NCBI GenBank assembly: GCA_948441255.1
Contig: CAOJPS010000002.1
Location: forward strand, 1 to 45,587
Length of the DNA: 45,587 nucleotides
Direction: 5' to 3'
Source of the DNA: an uncultured Eubacteriaceae bacterium
Lineage (GTDB): Bacteria > Bacillota > Clostridia > Lachnospirales > CAG-274
Below the pieces are notes generated by a model. It had not been told where the DNA came from and searched no databases. It worked only from the letters and a program-made list of their open reading frames with translations. A program made the translations under genes and the position numbers. Every line of letters starts with the position of its first letter. The first letter of the stretch is position 1. Shown piece after piece: positions 15,094 through 28,052 of the stretch.

Positions 15094-15918
15094 TCAATCA
15101 TTTGTAAAAATATTGCTTCCGCTGAAAATCTCAATCATTTCTCTGCGCAGGCTGTTAGTAATTTCAAGCCTTTCCTTAGGAGGAAGTTCATAAACATCAG
15201 TATTAAAAAGATAATTCTGCAAATCAATTTCTTTAATAAGCATTTTAGTATGAAAAATATTAGCCTGATAAACATTAATATCAATAGCGTCATATCTTTC
15301 AAGGGTTTTATCATTTATATAGTCCTGAATACTTGTCATATTATGGTCCATAAAAAGCTTTTTGCCGTCCACATCTCTCGTAAACCCTCTAACACGATAA
15401 TCCGTGGTAATAATATCCGAATCAAAGCTGTCAATAAGATAATCCAAAGTATTCAAAGGAGAAATCTGTCCGCAGGTCGAAACATCTATATCAACACGAA
15501 AGGTCGCGATAGAATTATCCGGGTGATACTCTGGATAAGAATGAACGGTAACATGGCTTTTATCAAGATGAGAAACAACGCTCTGTCTTTTTTCAATAAT
15601 TTTAGACTCTACCAAATTTTCCGATGTCCGTTCTTCCGAAAGAGAAAGTCCTCTTTCAGTAATAAGAACAGTAACGCTCGCCCCCTGAGGCTCATAATCC
15701 TGTTTAGATATATTAAGCACGTGAGCGCCAATCATTTTAGTAACATCACAAAGAATATTAGTAAGTCTTTCAGAGTTATACTGCTCGTCAATATAAGCTA
15801 TATAATCTTTTTGTTCTCTTTCACTTTTAGCGTAACAAACGTCATATATATTAAAGCTCAGCGTTTTTGTAAGATTATTAAAGCCATAAAGCTTCAGCTT
15901 ATTTTTCAACCCTATCAT
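15094..15918 (-). CDS. speD: S-adenosylmethionine decarboxylase proenzyme (E. coli SpeD type)
   Basis: The 274-residue proenzyme cleaves itself at K120-S121 in [13 protein letters not shown], where the serine becomes the pyruvoyl cofactor; C149 in [10 protein letters not shown] corresponds to the catalytic cysteine. Both lie nine residues later than in the 264-residue E. coli enzyme, as expected for a class 1A protein. It makes decarboxylated SAM for SpeE. ATG at 15918 is chosen over GTG at 15921 because AAAGG is five bases upstream. It is first in the operon. The stop codon lies inside TATAGTCAATCA, the end motif of a B-family repeat, so the last few codons may come from a repeat. Confidence 0.94.
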
Positions 15919-15956
15919 CACAGCCTTTCATAAAATAAAAAAGATACTTATTTTAT

Positions 15957-15985
15957 ATTTTACAATACAGCGAAAAAAATATCAA
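15957..15985 (-). promoter_or_regulatory. Candidate promoter of the polyamine operon
   Basis: TTGATA (15980-15985) and TAAAAT (15957-15962) on the minus strand have a 17-bp spacer, about 40 bp upstream of speD. No riboswitch-like fold is evident. Confidence 0.45.
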
Positions 15986-16106
15986 CAATTTATTAATGAA
16001 AAAACAAGTTCTTTTGTTAAAACCCTTAAAACTCCGCCGGTGACTCCGCTTCTTTCTTGAAAGAAAGAAGCAAAGAACTTTTACAAAACTATGTTTCGCT
16101 GTAAAA

Positions 16107-16215
16107 AAAACGCGGCAAAACCGCCGCCGCGTTTTTTTTAGCAAAGCGAACGCTTTGCGTTATGGGTCAAGGGACTTGTCCCTTGCAGGGTGCGGGACAG
16201 CGTCCCACGGTTTTA
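16107..16215. repeat. Hairpin-terminator module plus E cassette
   Basis: An ACGCGGC...GCCGCGT hairpin followed by a T-tract (about 16107-16138) is joined to the three-hairpin E cassette (16141-16215). The GCGGC/GCCGC hairpin with T-tract precedes the E cassette in the same way at 25331, 35443 and 43505. The E cassette runs into the last codons of the acyltransferase gene. Confidence 0.7.
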
Positions 16216-17280
16216 ATGTTTTAAAATTTTTTTAAATGGCAGGCTTTTAACAATAAGCATAAAAAATTCTGCCAAAAAATTGGCAATCCACGAAACAATA
16301 AGCGAACAAATAAAAATACAAGGAACAATAATAAAATAATACTTCACTCTGCCTCTAAAATCAGGAATAGCTGAATTCAAATAAGGATAAAATATCTTGT
16401 CAAAAATACAAGACGCCAAATATATTCCAAGAGCAAGTGATGAGATTTTACCCATACACTTTTTAATAAATAAAGGAAGCCTTTCAAGGTTAAGCTTGCT
16501 TATCAATATAAAAATAAGCGTCGAATCAATTACATTCTCAAAACCCATCCAATTACAATAACTTTTCCACTGAAAATTCAAACCATAGCTTTTATAAAAA
16601 TTAAACCCGCCAAAAGCAAATAAACAGATGATAAATATAATAAAAATATATCTTTTTTTAATTTCAACTCCAAATTCTCTTATAAAAGCGCCAATAAAAT
16701 AATATGTAACAGGGTAAAGCACCACCCAAAAATTAGGTATAATATCAATATCATCATTTATAAAAGACGGAGCCATTGTCAAAACAAGAAATGTAGCAAT
16801 CAACACAATTTTTTTATTTTTAGACTCCAATCCGTTGTAAATTAAGTTCAAAAATGGAATCAGCAGAAAAAGTCCGAAATACATTTCCATATACCAGGCG
16901 TACCATACCATAGAACCATTTAAAGTCCCCTGAATAAAATTCCAAAAATCAACATTCTCTTTAAGATGTATATTTCTGAATACCCATACCGCGATTGAAA
17001 TCAAAACATATACGATAAGAATTTTAACAATACCGCCGTAATATTTTTTAGACAAAGTCTTACGGCACATAAGATATCCGGTAAGTATCATAAACAAAGG
17101 CACGCAAATCATAAATAACGTTCTTGCCGTAACAGCGAAATATGAAAAAACCGAATCTATTTTTATTTTATAAAAACCAGTATTCATAAAAAAATGCACC
17201 GATATAACGGAAAAAACAGCCAAAATTCTAACCAAATCCATATTTACATTTCTTTTGTACCCCACCCCCCCCCCCCACAA
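16213..17280 (-). CDS. Membrane acyltransferase (acyltransferase 3 family), probably phase-variable
   Basis: The protein matches the acyltransferase 3 family: RNVNMDLVRILAVFSVISVH near the N-terminus holds the usual 'R...D..R..A...V...H' pattern, then about ten membrane segments. The family transfers acetyl or other acyl groups to surface glycans. As sequenced, the frame opens only at a TTG at 17280, inside a region ending in 12 Gs (17265-17276 on the minus strand), or at an ATG at 17241 that would cut into the domain. An ATG at 17333 with GGAGGT seven bases upstream is out of frame by one base; 13 Gs would join it and give about 373 residues. The RBS overlaps the stop of the upstream membrane-protein gene, indicating coupling. 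Confidence 0.88.
   Translation of the reverse strand: MWGGGVGYKRNVNMDLVRILAVFSVISVHFFMNTGFYKIKIDSVFSYFAVTARTLFMICVPLFMILTGYLMCRKTLSKKYYGGIVKILIVYVLISIAVWVFRNIHLKENVDFWNFIQGTLNGSMVWYAWYMEMYFGLFLLIPFLNLIYNGLESKNKKIVLIATFLVLTMAPSFINDDIDIIPNFWVVLYPVTYYFIGAFIREFGVEIKKRYIFIIFIICLFAFGGFNFYKSYGLNFQWKSYCNWMGFENVIDSTLIFILISKLNLERLPLFIKKCMGKISSLALGIYLASCIFDKIFYPYLNSAIPDFRGRVKYYFIIVPCIFICSLIVSWIANFLAEFFMLIVKSLPFKKILKH
17265..17276 (-). repeat. Homopolymeric G tract (12 G on the coding strand) at the acyltransferase start
   Basis: The plus strand shows twelve consecutive C, flanked by CCCA and ACAA. Such tracts slip during replication. The reading frame from the well-placed ATG at 17333 reaches the acyltransferase domain with 13 or 10 G but hits TAA after the tract with 12 G. 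Confidence 0.85.
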
Positions 17281-17338
17281 TTCTTTTTGTCATTATATTT
17301 TCCATTCTCTCCATATTCATTAACTTCCTCCATAAATT

Positions 17339-19744
17339 TTACCTCCAAAACTCAAACGCTTTTTCAAAAGCACATAAATATTTGTCTATATCAGCGTGAT
17401 TAAATCCAGAGGCGTTTAAAGTATAAGAATACATTTGAGTAAAACTAAGAATAAAGCACAAAACAACCGAACAAAAAAACGCCTTTGTCATAATCTTTTT
17501 AACACTTTCATTTTCACAATACCGATATATTATAAATGCTATAGTAAATGCCCCAAGCAAAAACTGCCACGCGAAATCAACTTTATATCTAGCCCCATAA
17601 CCGCTTTCCCACACAGAAGCGATAATCACAAAAGGAGCGATAATACATACCGACAAAAGCATAATAAGATACAATCTTTTATTATCACCGCTCAAAGCCA
17701 TATACGCTTTTTTGCCATAAAAATAAGAAAAACAGGGCAAAGCCATAACAAATAATCCTATAGCATTATTTGTTGCCACAAAATAATACCCATTTGGATT
17801 AAACGTTTCAACGTGAGAGGAAATAAAAGGGAACTCTGGAATAATATTGGGAACAGCAAACAAATAATTATAAAATCCTATTCCTGCAAAATGTGAGTGA
17901 AACTCCGTATTTGTAAAATCATTTATAGTAAGAGAATATTGTATTCCAAAGTCCATTATATTCCCAAATCTGGCATAATTATAAATCATCTGTATTCCGC
18001 CTATTATGGCAAAAGGCAAAAGAGCGGCGGCAAAATAACCGATATAATATTTAGCGCCTTTTATATTTTTGGACATAAAAGTTTTTCTTTTTTTAATAAA
18101 TCCGGCAAAAATAAAAATCAAAGAACACACACAATAAACGGCAAGAGTAGGTCTTGCCAGCACACCAAAAGCAAAAAGAACTGTAGAAACCGCCAAATTA
18201 ATCAAATTAATTTTTCTTTTCCCAATACAGCCACTTATAATCATAAAATAAGAGCCCGCTGTAACAAAAGCGAAACCTGACGCCTGAGCAATCTCATAAA
18301 AATTTCCCGTGGCAAAGCAAAACCAAATTCCGCTTGCGAACTGAATCATAGCAAGTCCCATCAATACGAAACTTATTTTCATATCTCCGAAAAATTCTTT
18401 CATAAAAGCCATATACAATTTATACAGGAAAAAAATACCTATAACGCCAAACAAAAAAGTACACCACAAAGACGGAAAATAATATCCCGTAATAAGATGA
18501 AACGGCAGACACAAAACCAAAACCGGCGCTATTCCATAATAAGAATAATAATTTCCATCAAAATAAAGATGGTCCCATAAATAAGAAATGCCCTCTCTCT
18601 GGCTGCCGTCATAAGGATTATCAAGCGCTTCAATCTCATCAGGAACTTCCGTCAAAAGACTCGCGCTCCCATTTTCAAAAGCGTCCACAAGTTCTTTAGT
18701 AATCTGATTTCCCGATTCCATTTTAAAATCATCAATAATATTTGAGAACAAGTCATTTCTTTGAACAATAATCATCAAAAAAGCGAAAGCTATCAAAAAA
18801 ACAGTAAATCCTCTCGCCGATAAAACACATAATCTCTCATTTTCCTCAAAAGTTTTAGAAAACCTTTCCGAGTTGCAAAAGAGATATTTAAAAAACACAA
18901 TACCTAATATAAATAAAATTCTAACAAAAGAGAAATTAAAAGGTATAACCTTATTAAACTCAAATTCCTCAACCGTCACAACATCTCCATTTTCGTGATT
19001 AATTTTTATTCTCATTTTGCTCACATTTCCCGACGCATTAATAGGAATAAAAAAACTTTTCTCACAGTCATTCACAATTTCGCCGGAAGCTATATTATTT
19101 CTATATTCTCTTCTCGTATCATCGGCAAAATCAATATTTATTTTTATTTTTTTATTATCCTTTGAGTTAGCTTTAAAATAAAGTGTTCCAACCTTTTCAT
19201 CTATTCCCAAAACCTCAATAACAGACTCGCCGTCATTTTCGGTTTTCATATTCTCAGCGTCAAAATTACTGAAAGCGACGTTTGAAACTTTAATATTTTC
19301 CTCATACTCTTCATAATTAATTTTAAAAGAATTAAAATTAAAAACAAAAATCTCAAGAAAAAGAGAAACTATAAAAGCCTTAAAAATCACTCTAAAAAAA
19401 TTATGTTTTGTCTTTTTCAGCAAAAACGAAGCAAAAAAAGCCAAAACCGAAGCCACAAAAAAGGCCATATAATGATACGCTTCTAAAGTTTTATAGCTAA
19501 TCTCCAAAGCTCCAAATATCAAAAAATACATAATAACGAAAAAAGTAATAATTATAAACAAATTATAATTTCCGCGAAATTTATAATTATCATAAAAAAA
19601 CAAATTCATATACGAAAAAACAAAAACTCCCAATAAAAGCAGTACATTTGCCAAAAAAATCTGATTAAAGACAAACAGAACAGCAGCAATTAATAATACA
19701 GGCAAAATTTTAACAAAATCAATAACTTGCTTTTTTTCCATCAT
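17339..19744 (-). CDS. Large multi-pass membrane protein, probable GT-C-type glycosyltransferase
   Basis: The 801-residue protein has hydrophobic segments near 10-130, a soluble beta-rich segment at about 135-270 (KVGTLYFKANSKDNKKIKIN region), and then roughly ten more membrane segments. The stretch LWDHLYFDGNYYSYYGIAP near residue 400 resembles luminal loops of GT-C/PMT-like glycosyltransferases, but I see no decisive DxD or catalytic signature, so the class is inferred. The ATG follows AGGAGAG at about ten bases. Its TAA overlaps the ribosome binding site of the acyltransferase gene, so the pair probably decorates or builds a cell-surface glycan. Confidence 0.65.
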   Translation of the reverse strand: MMEKKQVIDFVKILPVLLIAAVLFVFNQIFLANVLLLLGVFVFSYMNLFFYDNYKFRGNYNLFIIITFFVIMYFLIFGALEISYKTLEAYHYMAFFVASVLAFFASFLLKKTKHNFFRVIFKAFIVSLFLEIFVFNFNSFKINYEEYEENIKVSNVAFSNFDAENMKTENDGESVIEVLGIDEKVGTLYFKANSKDNKKIKINIDFADDTRREYRNNIASGEIVNDCEKSFFIPINASGNVSKMRIKINHENGDVVTVEEFEFNKVIPFNFSFVRILFILGIVFFKYLFCNSERFSKTFEENERLCVLSARGFTVFLIAFAFLMIIVQRNDLFSNIIDDFKMESGNQITKELVDAFENGSASLLTEVPDEIEALDNPYDGSQREGISYLWDHLYFDGNYYSYYGIAPVLVLCLPFHLITGYYFPSLWCTFLFGVIGIFFLYKLYMAFMKEFFGDMKISFVLMGLAMIQFASGIWFCFATGNFYEIAQASGFAFVTAGSYFMIISGCIGKRKINLINLAVSTVLFAFGVLARPTLAVYCVCSLIFIFAGFIKKRKTFMSKNIKGAKYYIGYFAAALLPFAIIGGIQMIYNYARFGNIMDFGIQYSLTINDFTNTEFHSHFAGIGFYNYLFAVPNIIPEFPFISSHVETFNPNGYYFVATNNAIGLFVMALPCFSYFYGKKAYMALSGDNKRLYLIMLLSVCIIAPFVIIASVWESGYGARYKVDFAWQFLLGAFTIAFIIYRYCENESVKKIMTKAFFCSVVLCFILSFTQMYSYTLNASGFNHADIDKYLCAFEKAFEFWR

Positions 19745-19788
19745 ATCTCACACTCTCTCCTAAAAGTCTGTCTAAAAACCAGTAATTT

Positions 19789-20121
19789 AACGTGAGTTCG
19801 ACAAGAAATTACGGTGAAACACAGCAAAACGTAGTTTCGCACAAAAATTTTTGTCAAACTTTTTTCAATATGTACCGCAAAGAAGTGCGGTCGGCGCAAG
19901 CCGATTTTTGGCGAAGCCAAAAACACTGACTGGTTTGTGGAGTTTGAGGCTGGTCACAAAATCAAAGATTTTGTTGCTCGCCCATGCAGCCAGGGTGAAA
20001 CCTCAAGGTTTTTAATGCGCAGGGAGCATTTTTGGGGGTTTGGACCCTTTTTATCGGGAAAGCGTTCCCGTTTCGATAGAAAAAGGGTCCAATTAATATA
20101 AAATTTCATAGAACTCACGTT
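19789..20121. repeat. D-family MITE-like element, copy 2 (333 bp), with 5-bp target duplication
   Basis: The ends are AACGTGAGTTCGAC and TAGAACTCACGTT. The element is flanked on both sides by AATTT (19784-19788 and 20122-20126), as expected for a target-site duplication. Internal hairpins include CCGCAAAGAAGTGCGG, GGCGCAAGCC, GGCGAAGCC, and CGGGAAAGCGTTCCCG. No transposase; it must be moved in trans if mobile. Confidence 0.8.
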
Positions 20122-20201
20122 AATTTAGTAAAAATGACATTGTTTTTATTGATTTTCATTTTGTTTTTAGACAATTTTCTCAAAATATTCAAAATAAGTT
20201 C

Positions 20202-20246
20202 TAAAAAGAAACGGCACACCACAAAATCTTGTGATATACCGTTTCT
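20202..20246 (-). terminator. Terminator of the str operon after tuf
   Basis: AGAAACGGTATATCACAA pairs with TTGTGGTGTGCCGTTTCT on the minus strand (two G-T pairs), followed by a T-run, about 40 bp past the tuf stop. Confidence 0.8.
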
Positions 20247-20283
20247 ATGTCAATAATAAATAATCTTTTAAAGACTAAACAAA

Positions 20284-21471
20284 TTATTCAATAACAGTAA
20301 CAACTGAACCAGAACCAACTGTACGTCCACCCTCACGGATAGCGAAACGAAGTCCCTGTTCCATAGCGATTGGGCTAATAAGTTCAACTGTCATTTCAAC
20401 GTTATCTCCAGGCATACACATTTCAGTACCTTCTGGCAAAGTAATAACGCCTGTAACGTCTGTTGTTCTAAAATAGAACTGAGGACGATAGTTGTTAAAG
20501 AAAGGTTTATGACGTCCGCCTTCATCAGCAGTCAAAACGTAAACCTGAGCGGTAAATTTAGTGTGAGGAGTAATAGTTCCCGGTTTAGCAAGAACCTGAC
20601 CTCTTTCAATTTCATTTCTCTGAACACCGCGGAGAAGAGTACCAACATTATCGCCGGCCTCTGCCTCGTCAAGAAGTTTACGGAACATTTCAATACCTGT
20701 AACAACTACTTTACGAGCTTCATCAACAATACCAACGATTTCAACTTCGTCATTAACTTTAAGAACACCACGTTCAACTCTACCTGTAGCAACAGTACCA
20801 CGGCCTGTAATAGAGAATACGTCCTCAACAGGCATAAGGAAAGGCTTGTCAGAATCTCTCTGAGGATTAGGGATATATTCATCGATTGTTTCAAACAATT
20901 CGATAATTTTATCTCCCCATTCACCAGAAGGATCTTGAAGTGCCTGGAAAGCGGAACCTCTTACAATAGGAGAATCCTCAAAACCATATTCAGCCAAAAG
21001 TTCGCTGATTTCCATTTCAACCAAGTCCAAAAGTTCCTCATCATCAACCATATCACATTTGTTCATAAAAACAACGATTTTAGGAACGCCAACCTGACGG
21101 GAAAGAAGAATATGCTCTCTTGTCTGAGCCATAGGACCATCTGTAGCGGCAACAACAAGGATAGCGCCATCCATCTGAGCCGCTCCTGTAATCATATTCT
21201 TAACATAGTCAGCATGACCAGGACAGTCAACGTGAGCGTAATGACGGTTAGGAGTTTCATATTCAACGTGAGTAGTTGAGATAGTGATACCTCTTTCTTT
21301 TTCTTCAGGAGCTTTGTCAATTTTATCAAAAGCTACTTCCTCGCCAAGCTGATATCTGTCATGCAAAGTTTTAGTAATAGCGGCAGTCAAAGTAGTTTTA
21401 CCGTGGTCAACGTGACCGATAGTACCAATGTTAACGTGTGGTTTAGTTCTTTCAAAACGTGCCTTAGCCAT
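20284..21471 (-). CDS. tuf: Elongation factor Tu
   Basis: The 395-residue GTPase delivers aminoacyl-tRNA to the ribosome. G1 is [10 protein letters not shown] near 18-27, G2 region [14 protein letters not shown]3 DCPGHADY, G4 NKCDMVDD, and the C-terminal barrel ends [22 protein letters not shown] precedes the ATG. It is last in the str operon, after a 99-bp gap that carries its own promoter. Confidence 0.99.
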
Positions 21472-25448: not shown

Positions 25449-28052
25449 TCAATATTCAGTTTCAAGCCACTCACTGTTCCATTTCATAACACCAGCGCCC
25501 ACAGACGGAACAACCTCCGACTCAAGATTATTCGTATCAATCAAATTGTAATTATAAGTCAGTTCTCCGTTCGTAATATAATCCGATTCACTCTCGTTCC
25601 AGGAAAATTCCTTCATAGTACTGCCTTTTTCAGTAGGTTTAAAATCAGCGCTTCCGCCTGTTTGCTCGTCGCCTGTACTGTTCACATTGTCAAGCTTAAC
25701 TTTATACTCCGTATCACTTCCGCCCTTGTGCAGATAATATTTAATACCCTCCGCGTAAAGCTTTCCAGCGTAATTTTTACCCTCTTCTTCAGCTTTCTGC
25801 TCAAAGCTCATAGGTGAGTTAACATCTTTCATATAGATATTTTCCGCAAGCAGCGCCCCGCCGCAAGTAGAAATCAGCGCTTGATTCGTAATACCAAAAT
25901 GATACGGCTCTTCGTTTTTGGAAAGGTCAAGTTTCAAATTTTTAGTTTTATACGTTTCGGTACTGTCTATAACAGTATTGAATATATGAGCGTTTCCAAA
26001 TCTCAGACGAGGAATTCTGTCCTGAATTTCCTTGTAATAGCAGTTATAAATTGTCACCGCCAGCTTGCTGTCAGCAGAATTATCATCATCGTGACCCACA
26101 AGGTGAGCCTTTTTCTGAGGTGCCTGAACCCTAATAATCTGTTCTTTGGAATATCCCTTGGTTTCTCTCAGATAACAATACAAAGGATACTTTGTTTTCG
26201 CCGTTTCAGGAGTTTCAGTATAAGTTTTCTCAAGCTGATTAATCTGTTTTGTAACCCAGCTGTTCTCAGTCATATCATCTCCAAGGAATTTACACCAAGA
26301 AATAACAATGTTATGAGAAGCCTCTTTAATATCCACCATACCGTCATAAGCCTTGTGGAAAGTGCAATGGTCAACCCAGGCGTTCGTCACAGGCACACCA
26401 GAGCTTTGTGTAAACGTGATATAATCCCAGTCATTTCTGTCATAAGCCCCTGGCTGCATCTCAGAATTTCCCGTTTCGCCTTCGTCCCACTCCCAAATCT
26501 CATCAAACTCAATATTTCTTATTATCAAGTTATCGCAGGCTTTAACCACAAAGCAGGCGTGTTTAATTTTGGCTCCGTTTTTCGAGAAAATAGTAAGCCC
26601 ATTAATATTTTGAACATTCACCGTACTAACTCCCGATTCTATAAGGATATCGTTATTTTTAGCCTGCATTTTATTTTTTTCAATACGCTTAAAATCGTTA
26701 CTCGTATCCTTATCTCCGTTTATCGTATCCCCGTCTATCTCATTCCAGCCAAGATTCAAGTCTGCCGTAATCTCAATCACTTTAATTTTACCGTTTCTGG
26801 CATTATAAAGAGCAGTGTCAAGTTCCTTTGGAGTAGAAACCTTAACATAAGCTTCGGCATTGCTTTCATCAACCGCACCTCCGCCTGTAATCTTGTCATA
26901 TCCAAATCCCGTAAGATTAAACTTAGAGTTTTCCGACGGTATATCATCGCTTGTCGTAACTTCCGTACTAATTTCCGTAGTACCTTCAGTAGGTTTATCA
27001 TCTCCTCCGGCGGCGTTGGAGTAAACCTCAATTTTATAAATATTAACTCCTCCGTCTTCTGAATAAATATATAAAGTAGTTTCATTTTCTGCCTTATATT
27101 TAAATTCAGCCATATAAAGCTTATCACCGCCAAGTTTTTCTGAAACTTGTTTATTAGAGTCTGCGCCATCGCTTAATGAAACGCTCCTTGGGGTACTTGA
27201 AGCACTGCTCATAGCAAGAACTTTGACAGTTACGTCTCCATTTACGTTAAACGCTACAGCCCTTTTAGTAATGTCACCTTTTCCTCCAAGTTTTATTCTT
27301 TTTGAAAAACTTTCCTTAGAACCGTCATCATACTCAAACGTCTTATTATTAGCGTCAATCGCTACGCTGCCTCCGCCTTTGATAGTAAACTCTCCGCACA
27401 CTTTTTCTTCATTTTCAGGAATAGCGGTAACCTCTTCTAAGTCGCTGGCGTTTAAAGACGAAATAAGCTTTTGTTCATTTGAAGCTTCCGTTGTTGTTTC
27501 AACACTTGATTCCTCCTCAGTGCTTGTTTCAGCTTCTGTACTTGTTTCTGTCTTGGTATTTGTTTCAGCCTCAGTGCTTGTTTCTGTTTTAGTATTTGCC
27601 TCAGTCTCAGTACTTGTTTCACTTTCTGTACTTGTTTCCGTTTTGGTATTTGTTTCAGCCTCAGTGCTTGTTTCCGTTCCATTACCCTTTTCAGTAGTCA
27701 TTTCCGTAGTTGAACTATCGTCTTCCCCATTATAAGGAATAAACTCAAAAGAGTTATTCAAAACTTTTTGAAGTATAGCGGAAGCGTCGTCAACAGATGG
27801 AACTTTCTTTCCCGTAACCTGTGAAAGCTCCGTTTGCTCGTCAGTAAGCTGAAATTTTCCAAGCACGGCATTCAATACAACAGAAGCGTCCGCCGCGGTC
27901 AAACTGCCGTCCATATCAACATCACCAAGTTTTTTTACATCATCCAAAGTATGTATGCCTTCGGCAAAAGAAAAAACTGAACCGCTTAAACACAATGCGA
28001 TACAAAGCATAAGTGATAAAAATTTTCTAAAACCATTTTTACAATAAATCAT
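25449..28052 (-). CDS. Secreted PL1-family pectate lyase with N-terminal dockerin-like domain
   Basis: The 867-residue protein has a signal peptide (about 1-30). A dockerin-like domain follows at about 40-100: GDVDMDGSLTAADAS is a full calcium loop, while the second copy (TGKKVPSVDDASAIL) has lost most ligands. Residues 108-190 are a Thr/Glu/Ser linker of near-repeated 12-residue units. A beta-sandwich, carbohydrate-binding-like domain follows at about 200-350, then a short TEGTTEISTEVTT linker. The PL1 catalytic domain runs from about 390 to the end, with AWVDHCTFHKAYDGMVDIKE and DRIPRLRFGNAHIFN as parallel-beta-helix active-site segments. It would cleave homogalacturonan by beta-elimination outside the cell. 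GAAAGG precedes the ATG. The stop is only 12 bp past an E cassette. Confidence 0.92.
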   Translation of the reverse strand: MIYCKNGFRKFLSLMLCIALCLSGSVFSFAEGIHTLDDVKKLGDVDMDGSLTAADASVVLNAVLGKFQLTDEQTELSQVTGKKVPSVDDASAILQKVLNNSFEFIPYNGEDDSSTTEMTTEKGNGTETSTEAETNTKTETSTESETSTETEANTKTETSTEAETNTKTETSTEAETSTEEESSVETTTEASNEQKLISSLNASDLEEVTAIPENEEKVCGEFTIKGGGSVAIDANNKTFEYDDGSKESFSKRIKLGGKGDITKRAVAFNVNGDVTVKVLAMSSASSTPRSVSLSDGADSNKQVSEKLGGDKLYMAEFKYKAENETTLYIYSEDGGVNIYKIEVYSNAAGGDDKPTEGTTEISTEVTTSDDIPSENSKFNLTGFGYDKITGGGAVDESNAEAYVKVSTPKELDTALYNARNGKIKVIEITADLNLGWNEIDGDTINGDKDTSNDFKRIEKNKMQAKNNDILIESGVSTVNVQNINGLTIFSKNGAKIKHACFVVKACDNLIIRNIEFDEIWEWDEGETGNSEMQPGAYDRNDWDYITFTQSSGVPVTNAWVDHCTFHKAYDGMVDIKEASHNIVISWCKFLGDDMTENSWVTKQINQLEKTYTETPETAKTKYPLYCYLRETKGYSKEQIIRVQAPQKKAHLVGHDDDNSADSKLAVTIYNCYYKEIQDRIPRLRFGNAHIFNTVIDSTETYKTKNLKLDLSKNEEPYHFGITNQALISTCGGALLAENIYMKDVNSPMSFEQKAEEEGKNYAGKLYAEGIKYYLHKGGSDTEYKVKLDNVNSTGDEQTGGSADFKPTEKGSTMKEFSWNESESDYITNGELTYNYNLIDTNNLESEVVPSVGAGVMKWNSEWLETEY
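27505..27690 (-). repeat. Degenerate tandem repeat coding the pectate lyase linker
   Basis: Units of about 36 bp encode TETSTEAETNTK-like 12-mers, with variants TETSTESETSTE and TETSTEAETSTE. The boundaries are approximate. Such repeats can expand or contract by recombination. Confidence 0.7.

Follow-up and report, generated by a model that had tools for sequence, protein, structure and literature searches.

The analysed stretch of DNA (hereafter the window) is 45,587 nucleotides long and carries, on its minus strand between tuf and a speD-like gene, an acyltransferase gene preceded by the gene of a large membrane protein, with a homopolymer of guanines close to the 5' end of the acyltransferase frame. 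The features of this region are listed in Table 1. Concerning the search for terminator-like sites, nine were observed vs. 3.0 in shuffled sequences.

Table 1. Features of the acyltransferase locus (N, number of Gs in the tract; SD, Shine-Dalgarno sequence)
Feature	Position in the window	Strand	Basis or remark
12-G homopolymer tract (poly-C on the + strand), proposed slippage switch	17265..17276	-	Expectation, match in G002
SD GGAGGT, 7 nt ahead of ATG 17333; shares bases with the stop codon of the upstream gene	17341..17346	-	
Leader frame from ATG 17333, MEEVNEYGENGKYNDKKNCGGGGWGTKEM and stop; fuses with the domain at N = 10/13	17244..17333	-	
Second SD-like GGAGG (17331-17327) and ATG 17320; fuses with the domain at N = 8/11/14	17318..17331	-	
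TTG without SD; sole domain-frame start 5' of the tract at N = 12	17278..17280	-	
ATG (MDLVRILA...), candidate re-initiation start, 2 nt past the leader stop; layout kept in G002	17239..17241	-	
P0001, acyltransferase-3 (AT3, PF01757) membrane protein, 355 aa from TTG 17280, R18-X10-H29	16213..17280	-	Pfam match
P801, 801-aa multi-pass membrane protein, upstream gene	17339..19744	-	GT-C-like by appearance; likely same operon
Terminator-like hairpin and T run, 3' of the acyltransferase	16112..16127	-	Site scan vs. shuffles
tuf (EF-Tu), kept upstream neighbour; marks synteny with G002 and G001	20284..21471	-	
AdoMet decarboxylase (speD-like), kept downstream neighbour in G002, 93% identical	15094..15921	-	

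The acyltransferase P0001 matches Pfam family PF01757 (Acyl_transf_3) at 1.6e-32 and 113.3 bits (gathering cut-off 31), with residues 12-333 aligned to positions 2-324 of the 326-position profile. The R-X10-H motif, which sits in TMH1 of AT3 enzymes (PMC9833829), is present in P0001 (R18, H29) and in the ortholog of a second genome of the genus (G002), and reads K-X10-H in that of a third (G001). As for the RXXR motif of the cytoplasmic face of TMH3, which is described as highly conserved, not absolute, and was treated here as common rather than defining, P0001 has G-x-x-K and both orthologs have K-x-x-K (by eye, alignment A1), so that caution is called for over the exact chemistry of P0001. 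The protein most likely acylates, and probably acetylates, a cell-surface glycan, a substrate suggested by analogy with the AT3 family. No relative was found when the PDB was searched with the acyltransferase, and a scan of public genomes with P0001 gave only one named match, a distant one (33%) in an uncultured Clostridia MAG. The 801-aa upstream protein had no Pfam or NCBIfam match. Elsewhere in the window, an 867-aa protein (25449-28052, minus strand) has a weak mucin-like match in its N-terminal part and a pectate-lyase-type match in its C-terminal part.

The genome to which the window belongs (G000) encodes Spo0A, no Omp85 was found in it, and the EF-Tu of the window is one that we take to be clostridial in appearance. 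The host is most likely a monoderm, spore-former-type member of the Clostridia, presumably living in the gut. Since it is most likely monoderm, LPS is an unlikely acyl acceptor; capsule, teichoic acid or the glycan of a glycoprotein may play this role.

On the minus strand, the stop codon of the 801-aa frame (TAA, 17341-17339) falls within GGAGGTAA and overlaps the SD GGAGGT. Translation from ATG 17333 gives the leader MEEVNEYGENGKYNDKKNCGGGGWGTKEM, which reads across exactly 12 Gs and terminates at TAA 17246-17244, just as the initial annotation had described it. All starts were then enumerated against tract length: ATG 17333 is in frame with the acyltransferase body at N = 7, 10, 13 and 16, which bears out the earlier claim that 10 or 13 Gs would join leader and enzyme; ATG 17320, located inside the leader 6 nt 3' of a GGAGG, is in frame at N = 8, 11 and 14; and the SD-less TTG 17280 is in frame at N = 6, 9 and 12. 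The length as assembled, N = 12, is the sole phase in which neither SD-led start enters the enzyme. ATG 17241 is in the domain frame and has no SD ahead of it. The initial annotation had also taken ATG 17333 as the designed start and the assembly as being in the OFF state. The former stands as regards the GGAGGT at 7 nt and the overlap with the upstream stop, but not as regards exclusivity, ATG 17320, which the initial annotation had overlooked, being another good start at N = 11 and 14; the latter agrees with the lack of any SD-led start reading the enzyme at N = 12, although re-initiation at 17241 could leak. With this layout, the switch may have a graded output and not just an on and an off state, since ATG 17320 serves N = 11 and 14, and expression of the enzyme may never be wholly OFF, given the second SD-led ATG and the re-initiation site.

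The 12-G tract is the only run of at least seven G or C in the window. When Markov models (orders 1-4) are fitted to the window minus the tract, they predict 0.001-0.023 runs of at least 12 Gs per genome (2 x 2.62 Mb). The G000 assembly is a draft of 282 contigs, 94% complete, with a handful of G8+ runs. Tens of G or C found at the ends of two other contigs (G000:C8:27637-27690 and G000:C231:3753-3801) are probably poly-G sequencing or assembly artefacts and were set aside as such. The tract itself is considered real because it sits well inside a 45.6-kb contig and has a counterpart in an independent assembly; its exact count of 12 Gs is uncertain because of the 282-contig draft and the poly-G artefacts that end those two contigs.

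The acyltransferase gene is present in three of the four genomes of the genus, and the comparison with relatives that the initial annotation had called for, once run, disclosed in G002 a syntenic tract of another length, at the same place, out of phase and ahead of a body under selection. The G002 ortholog is about 67-68% identical and has 8 Gs followed by an identical TACARAAGRAATGTAAATATGGAT; its SD-led GTG fuses with the body at 6, 9 or 12 Gs only, 8 Gs being out of phase. The gene order is tuf-AT3-speD in G002 (98, 67 and 93% identity, respectively) vs. tuf-P801-AT3-speD in the window. In G001, the ortholog (54% identical) lies downstream of tuf and is followed by a homolog of P801 (65%); it has no tract, its single frame runs uninterrupted and its leader is about as long, hence the in-frame leader form is a natural protein. 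With tuf at 98% and speD at 93% vs. 67% for the acyltransferase in the comparison with G002, and with a gene content that varies among the three congeners, the region 15094-21471 of the window has the look of a fast-changing island.

Between the window and G002, the enzyme body displays a dN of 0.22 and a dS of 1.38 (dN/dS 0.16), and the changes at codon positions 1, 2 and 3 number 92, 46 and 147, the third position being the heaviest. Purifying selection on a gene whose frame is broken in either assembly fits phase variation, not a dead gene. At the junction between leader and body, the ON-frame residues Y-K/R-R-N-V-N ahead of 17241 are conserved, RN being present also in the tract-less G001 ortholog, and the arrangement TAA-AT-ATG (leader stop, then ATG 17241) is kept in the window and G002 orthologs.

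At the level of the bacterial family, G9+ tracts were found in 38 of the 48 genomes, and one genus reaches about 25 in a genome. Across the wider order, the figure is 0-2 for most families, and two other families are also rich. A set of 95 distinct tracts, ranging from 8 to 20 Gs, was fetched from eight genomes of the family. Genes bearing or following these tracts include GtrII glucosyltransferases (three), YfhO, DUF6020 and PMT_2, an AlgX-type SGNH protein, TylF-type and other methyltransferases, a GT4 glycosyltransferase, a DUF11 repeat protein, polysaccharide deacetylase/heparinase-like paralogs and type I HsdS. Besides the window gene and its ortholog, further AT3 genes are located at tracts in loci L073, L105 (two genes) and L140.

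The phases of these tracts vary even between paralogs: adjacent GtrII paralogs in G001 have 10 Gs in frame and 9 Gs out of frame, and the heparinase-like paralogs in G007 have 10 Gs out, 9 Gs out and 10 Gs in. For the coding-like G8+ tracts, a class set by open-frame lengths in which a few members may be misassigned, 23 out of 43 are in frame, while the +1 and -1 phases hold 10 each. In the same DNA, the G4 runs are 321 in frame out of 367 (23 at +1, 23 at -1), and the corresponding figures for G5-6 runs are 56, 4 and 6. The difference in phase is significant vs. both G4 (Fisher p = 5e-7) and G5-6 runs (p = 5e-4), which free movement of phase explains, unlike selection that holds the frame fixed or favours a single recoding offset. 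Some individual loci were also recorded. In G007, a G9 throws a type I restriction HsdS out of frame (L112:1210-2419, contig C22), making it a candidate switch of DNA methylation specificity, and about 8 kb of locus L114 (C31:9700-21800) holds six G9-G10 tracts, their genes being two near-identical PglD/C2185-like ones, a deacetylase-heparinase and three heparinase-like paralogs in differing phases. In G002, some G8-10 tracts are in frame in genes of housekeeping type, a TsaD-like one (L069) and an FtsE-like ABC one (L080), for which the names rest on sequence motifs; chance may account for these tracts.

Taken together, the 12-G tract is very likely a translational contingency locus, at which slipped-strand mispairing would bring about phase variation of the AT3 acyltransferase. 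The tract lies between start and body and sets the frame, exceeds the length expected by chance, has kept its position while changing its length, and precedes a body under selection; the phase-variable switch proposed by the initial annotation is further strengthened by the occurrence of surface-glycan-type G-tract genes in all three phases across the family. The addition or removal of Gs at replication, between the SD-led starts and the AT3 body, would give the full protein from ATG 17333 at 10 or 13 Gs and a protein from ATG 17320 at 11 or 14 Gs. At 12 Gs, both SD-led starts would hit early stops and expression would be OFF or low, any product arising only through weak initiation at TTG 17280 or re-initiation at ATG 17241. 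The cells of one population would thereby vary in glycan decoration. From the sequences we infer slippage in living populations, together with its rate, the usage of the starts, the activity and substrate of the enzyme and a benefit to the cell.

Other explanations can be given for an enzyme that is out of frame with its leader. Programmed -1 ribosomal frameshifting or transcriptional slippage would make the tract a recoding site, delivering a steady full-length fraction at any tract length, and G runs are indeed slippery in principle; in both the window and G002 orthologs, the domain is offset by -1 from the leader. Such a site should nevertheless hold one offset, whereas the out-of-frame tracts of the family comprise 10 at +1 and 10 at -1 and many tract genes are plainly in frame; moreover, tract length is not kept (12 vs. 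8 Gs) and G001 does without a tract, which leaves recoding improbable. We give an equally small chance to a dispensable leader, in which case the enzyme would come mainly from ATG 17241 by re-initiation and the tract would only tune its level or N-terminus. The conserved TAA-AT-ATG and the position of the R-X10-H motif, past ATG 17241, speak for it; the lack of an SD before 17241, the conservation in the ON frame of the residues just 5' of this codon, and the tract-less G001 ortholog, which keeps RN and starts well upstream, speak against it.

Least probable of all is a frameshift frozen in a decaying gene, or a miscounted homopolymer, by which the gene would be dead or permanently on. Some suspicion does attach to a 282-contig draft with poly-G artefacts at the ends of two other contigs, but the body is intact across 340 codons with a dN/dS of 0.16, the tract lies away from the ends of its contig and recurs in a second, independent assembly, and a miscount would in any case leave the tract itself in place. 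Slipped-strand phase variation of the acyltransferase remains the preferred reading.

Most of what is known of poly-G contingency loci comes from Gram-negative pathogens and, among gut Gram-positives, from bifidobacterial pili. The AT3 O-acetyltransferase genes oafA of Haemophilus influenzae and oafB of Salmonella Typhi are given in a review as phase-variable (PMC9558356). The window locus resembles them, as portrayed there, in being a membrane AT3 enzyme for a surface glycan under random switching; the two known enzymes differ in acting on LPS/LOS in Gram-negatives, the switching of oafB being described as epigenetic (PMC9558356), whereas here the host has Spo0A and lacks Omp85, and the G tract lies in a coding leader. 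By AT3 family only, the locus can also be compared with IcaC of the staphylococcal PNAG operons, which the same review presents as a stand-alone AT3-only protein of a monoderm, with an exopolysaccharide as its target (PMC9558356). In the sortase-pilus of Bifidobacterium breve, a G-tract slippage switch was demonstrated by maximum depth sequencing (PMC9187656); its tract is likewise intragenic, its host is a gut commensal and Gram-positive, and a fraction of the population has the expressing length (PMC9187656). It is, however, a pilus gene of an actinomycete, while the present case concerns an acyltransferase in a Clostridia-type genome and is proposed from sequence comparison. As a whole, the family recalls the SSR phasomes of Campylobacter, Helicobacter and Neisseria, with many homopolymeric tracts in each genome, a good number of them in surface-modification genes, at both translational and transcriptional levels (PMC6321876, PMC2823697, PMC5320596), but these are Gram-negative and the poly-G repertoire here belongs to a spore-former-type lineage.

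Random switching of AT3 enzymes, and G-tract slippage in a Gram-positive of the gut (B. breve), are both already known; of the present claims, the one on the family-wide repertoire holds the greater interest. No report of poly-G phase variation in Clostridia or Lachnospiraceae was found in the open-access literature searched, and, as far as that literature goes, a poly-G repertoire in Clostridia of this sort appears undescribed. If true, a family of probably uncultured Clostridia varies its surface glycans by poly-G switching, which would be relevant to phage resistance, immune recognition and strain-level variation in metagenomes. Existing metagenomic reads give direct access to the state of such genes, and the claim can therefore be put to the test with no need for a cultured strain.

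A transcriptional component is suggested by promoter-like sites. In loci L124, L131 and L142-L147 (G008, G009, G012, G022, G026 and G027), TTGACA and TATAAT precisely flank a G tract, the spacer measuring 14-20 nt. The pattern occurs in these six genomes of the family, vs. none for the reversed control pattern, and such sites are candidate transcriptional phase-variable promoters. On balance, we lean towards a large poly-G phasome in this spore-former-type family, both translational (glycosyl- and acyltransferases, methyltransferases, HsdS) and transcriptional (-35/-10 spacers), in which the AT3 locus would be a graded switch, two out of its three tract phases being covered by a pair of overlapping SD-led starts that differ in frame.

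Two further observations concern the surroundings of the tracts. A T follows 65 of the 95 G8+ tracts (TA in 50) vs. 202 of 734 G4-6 runs (Fisher p = 2e-14), a bias of which TATAAT sites explain only a part. In addition, a dispersed intergenic element of G001, GAGGAAGTC...TTTTTAAGCGGGG...ACTTACTCTTGTATT, with G5-G11 runs, underlies several of the non-coding tracts (L094, L096, L097, L098 and L011:540-620).
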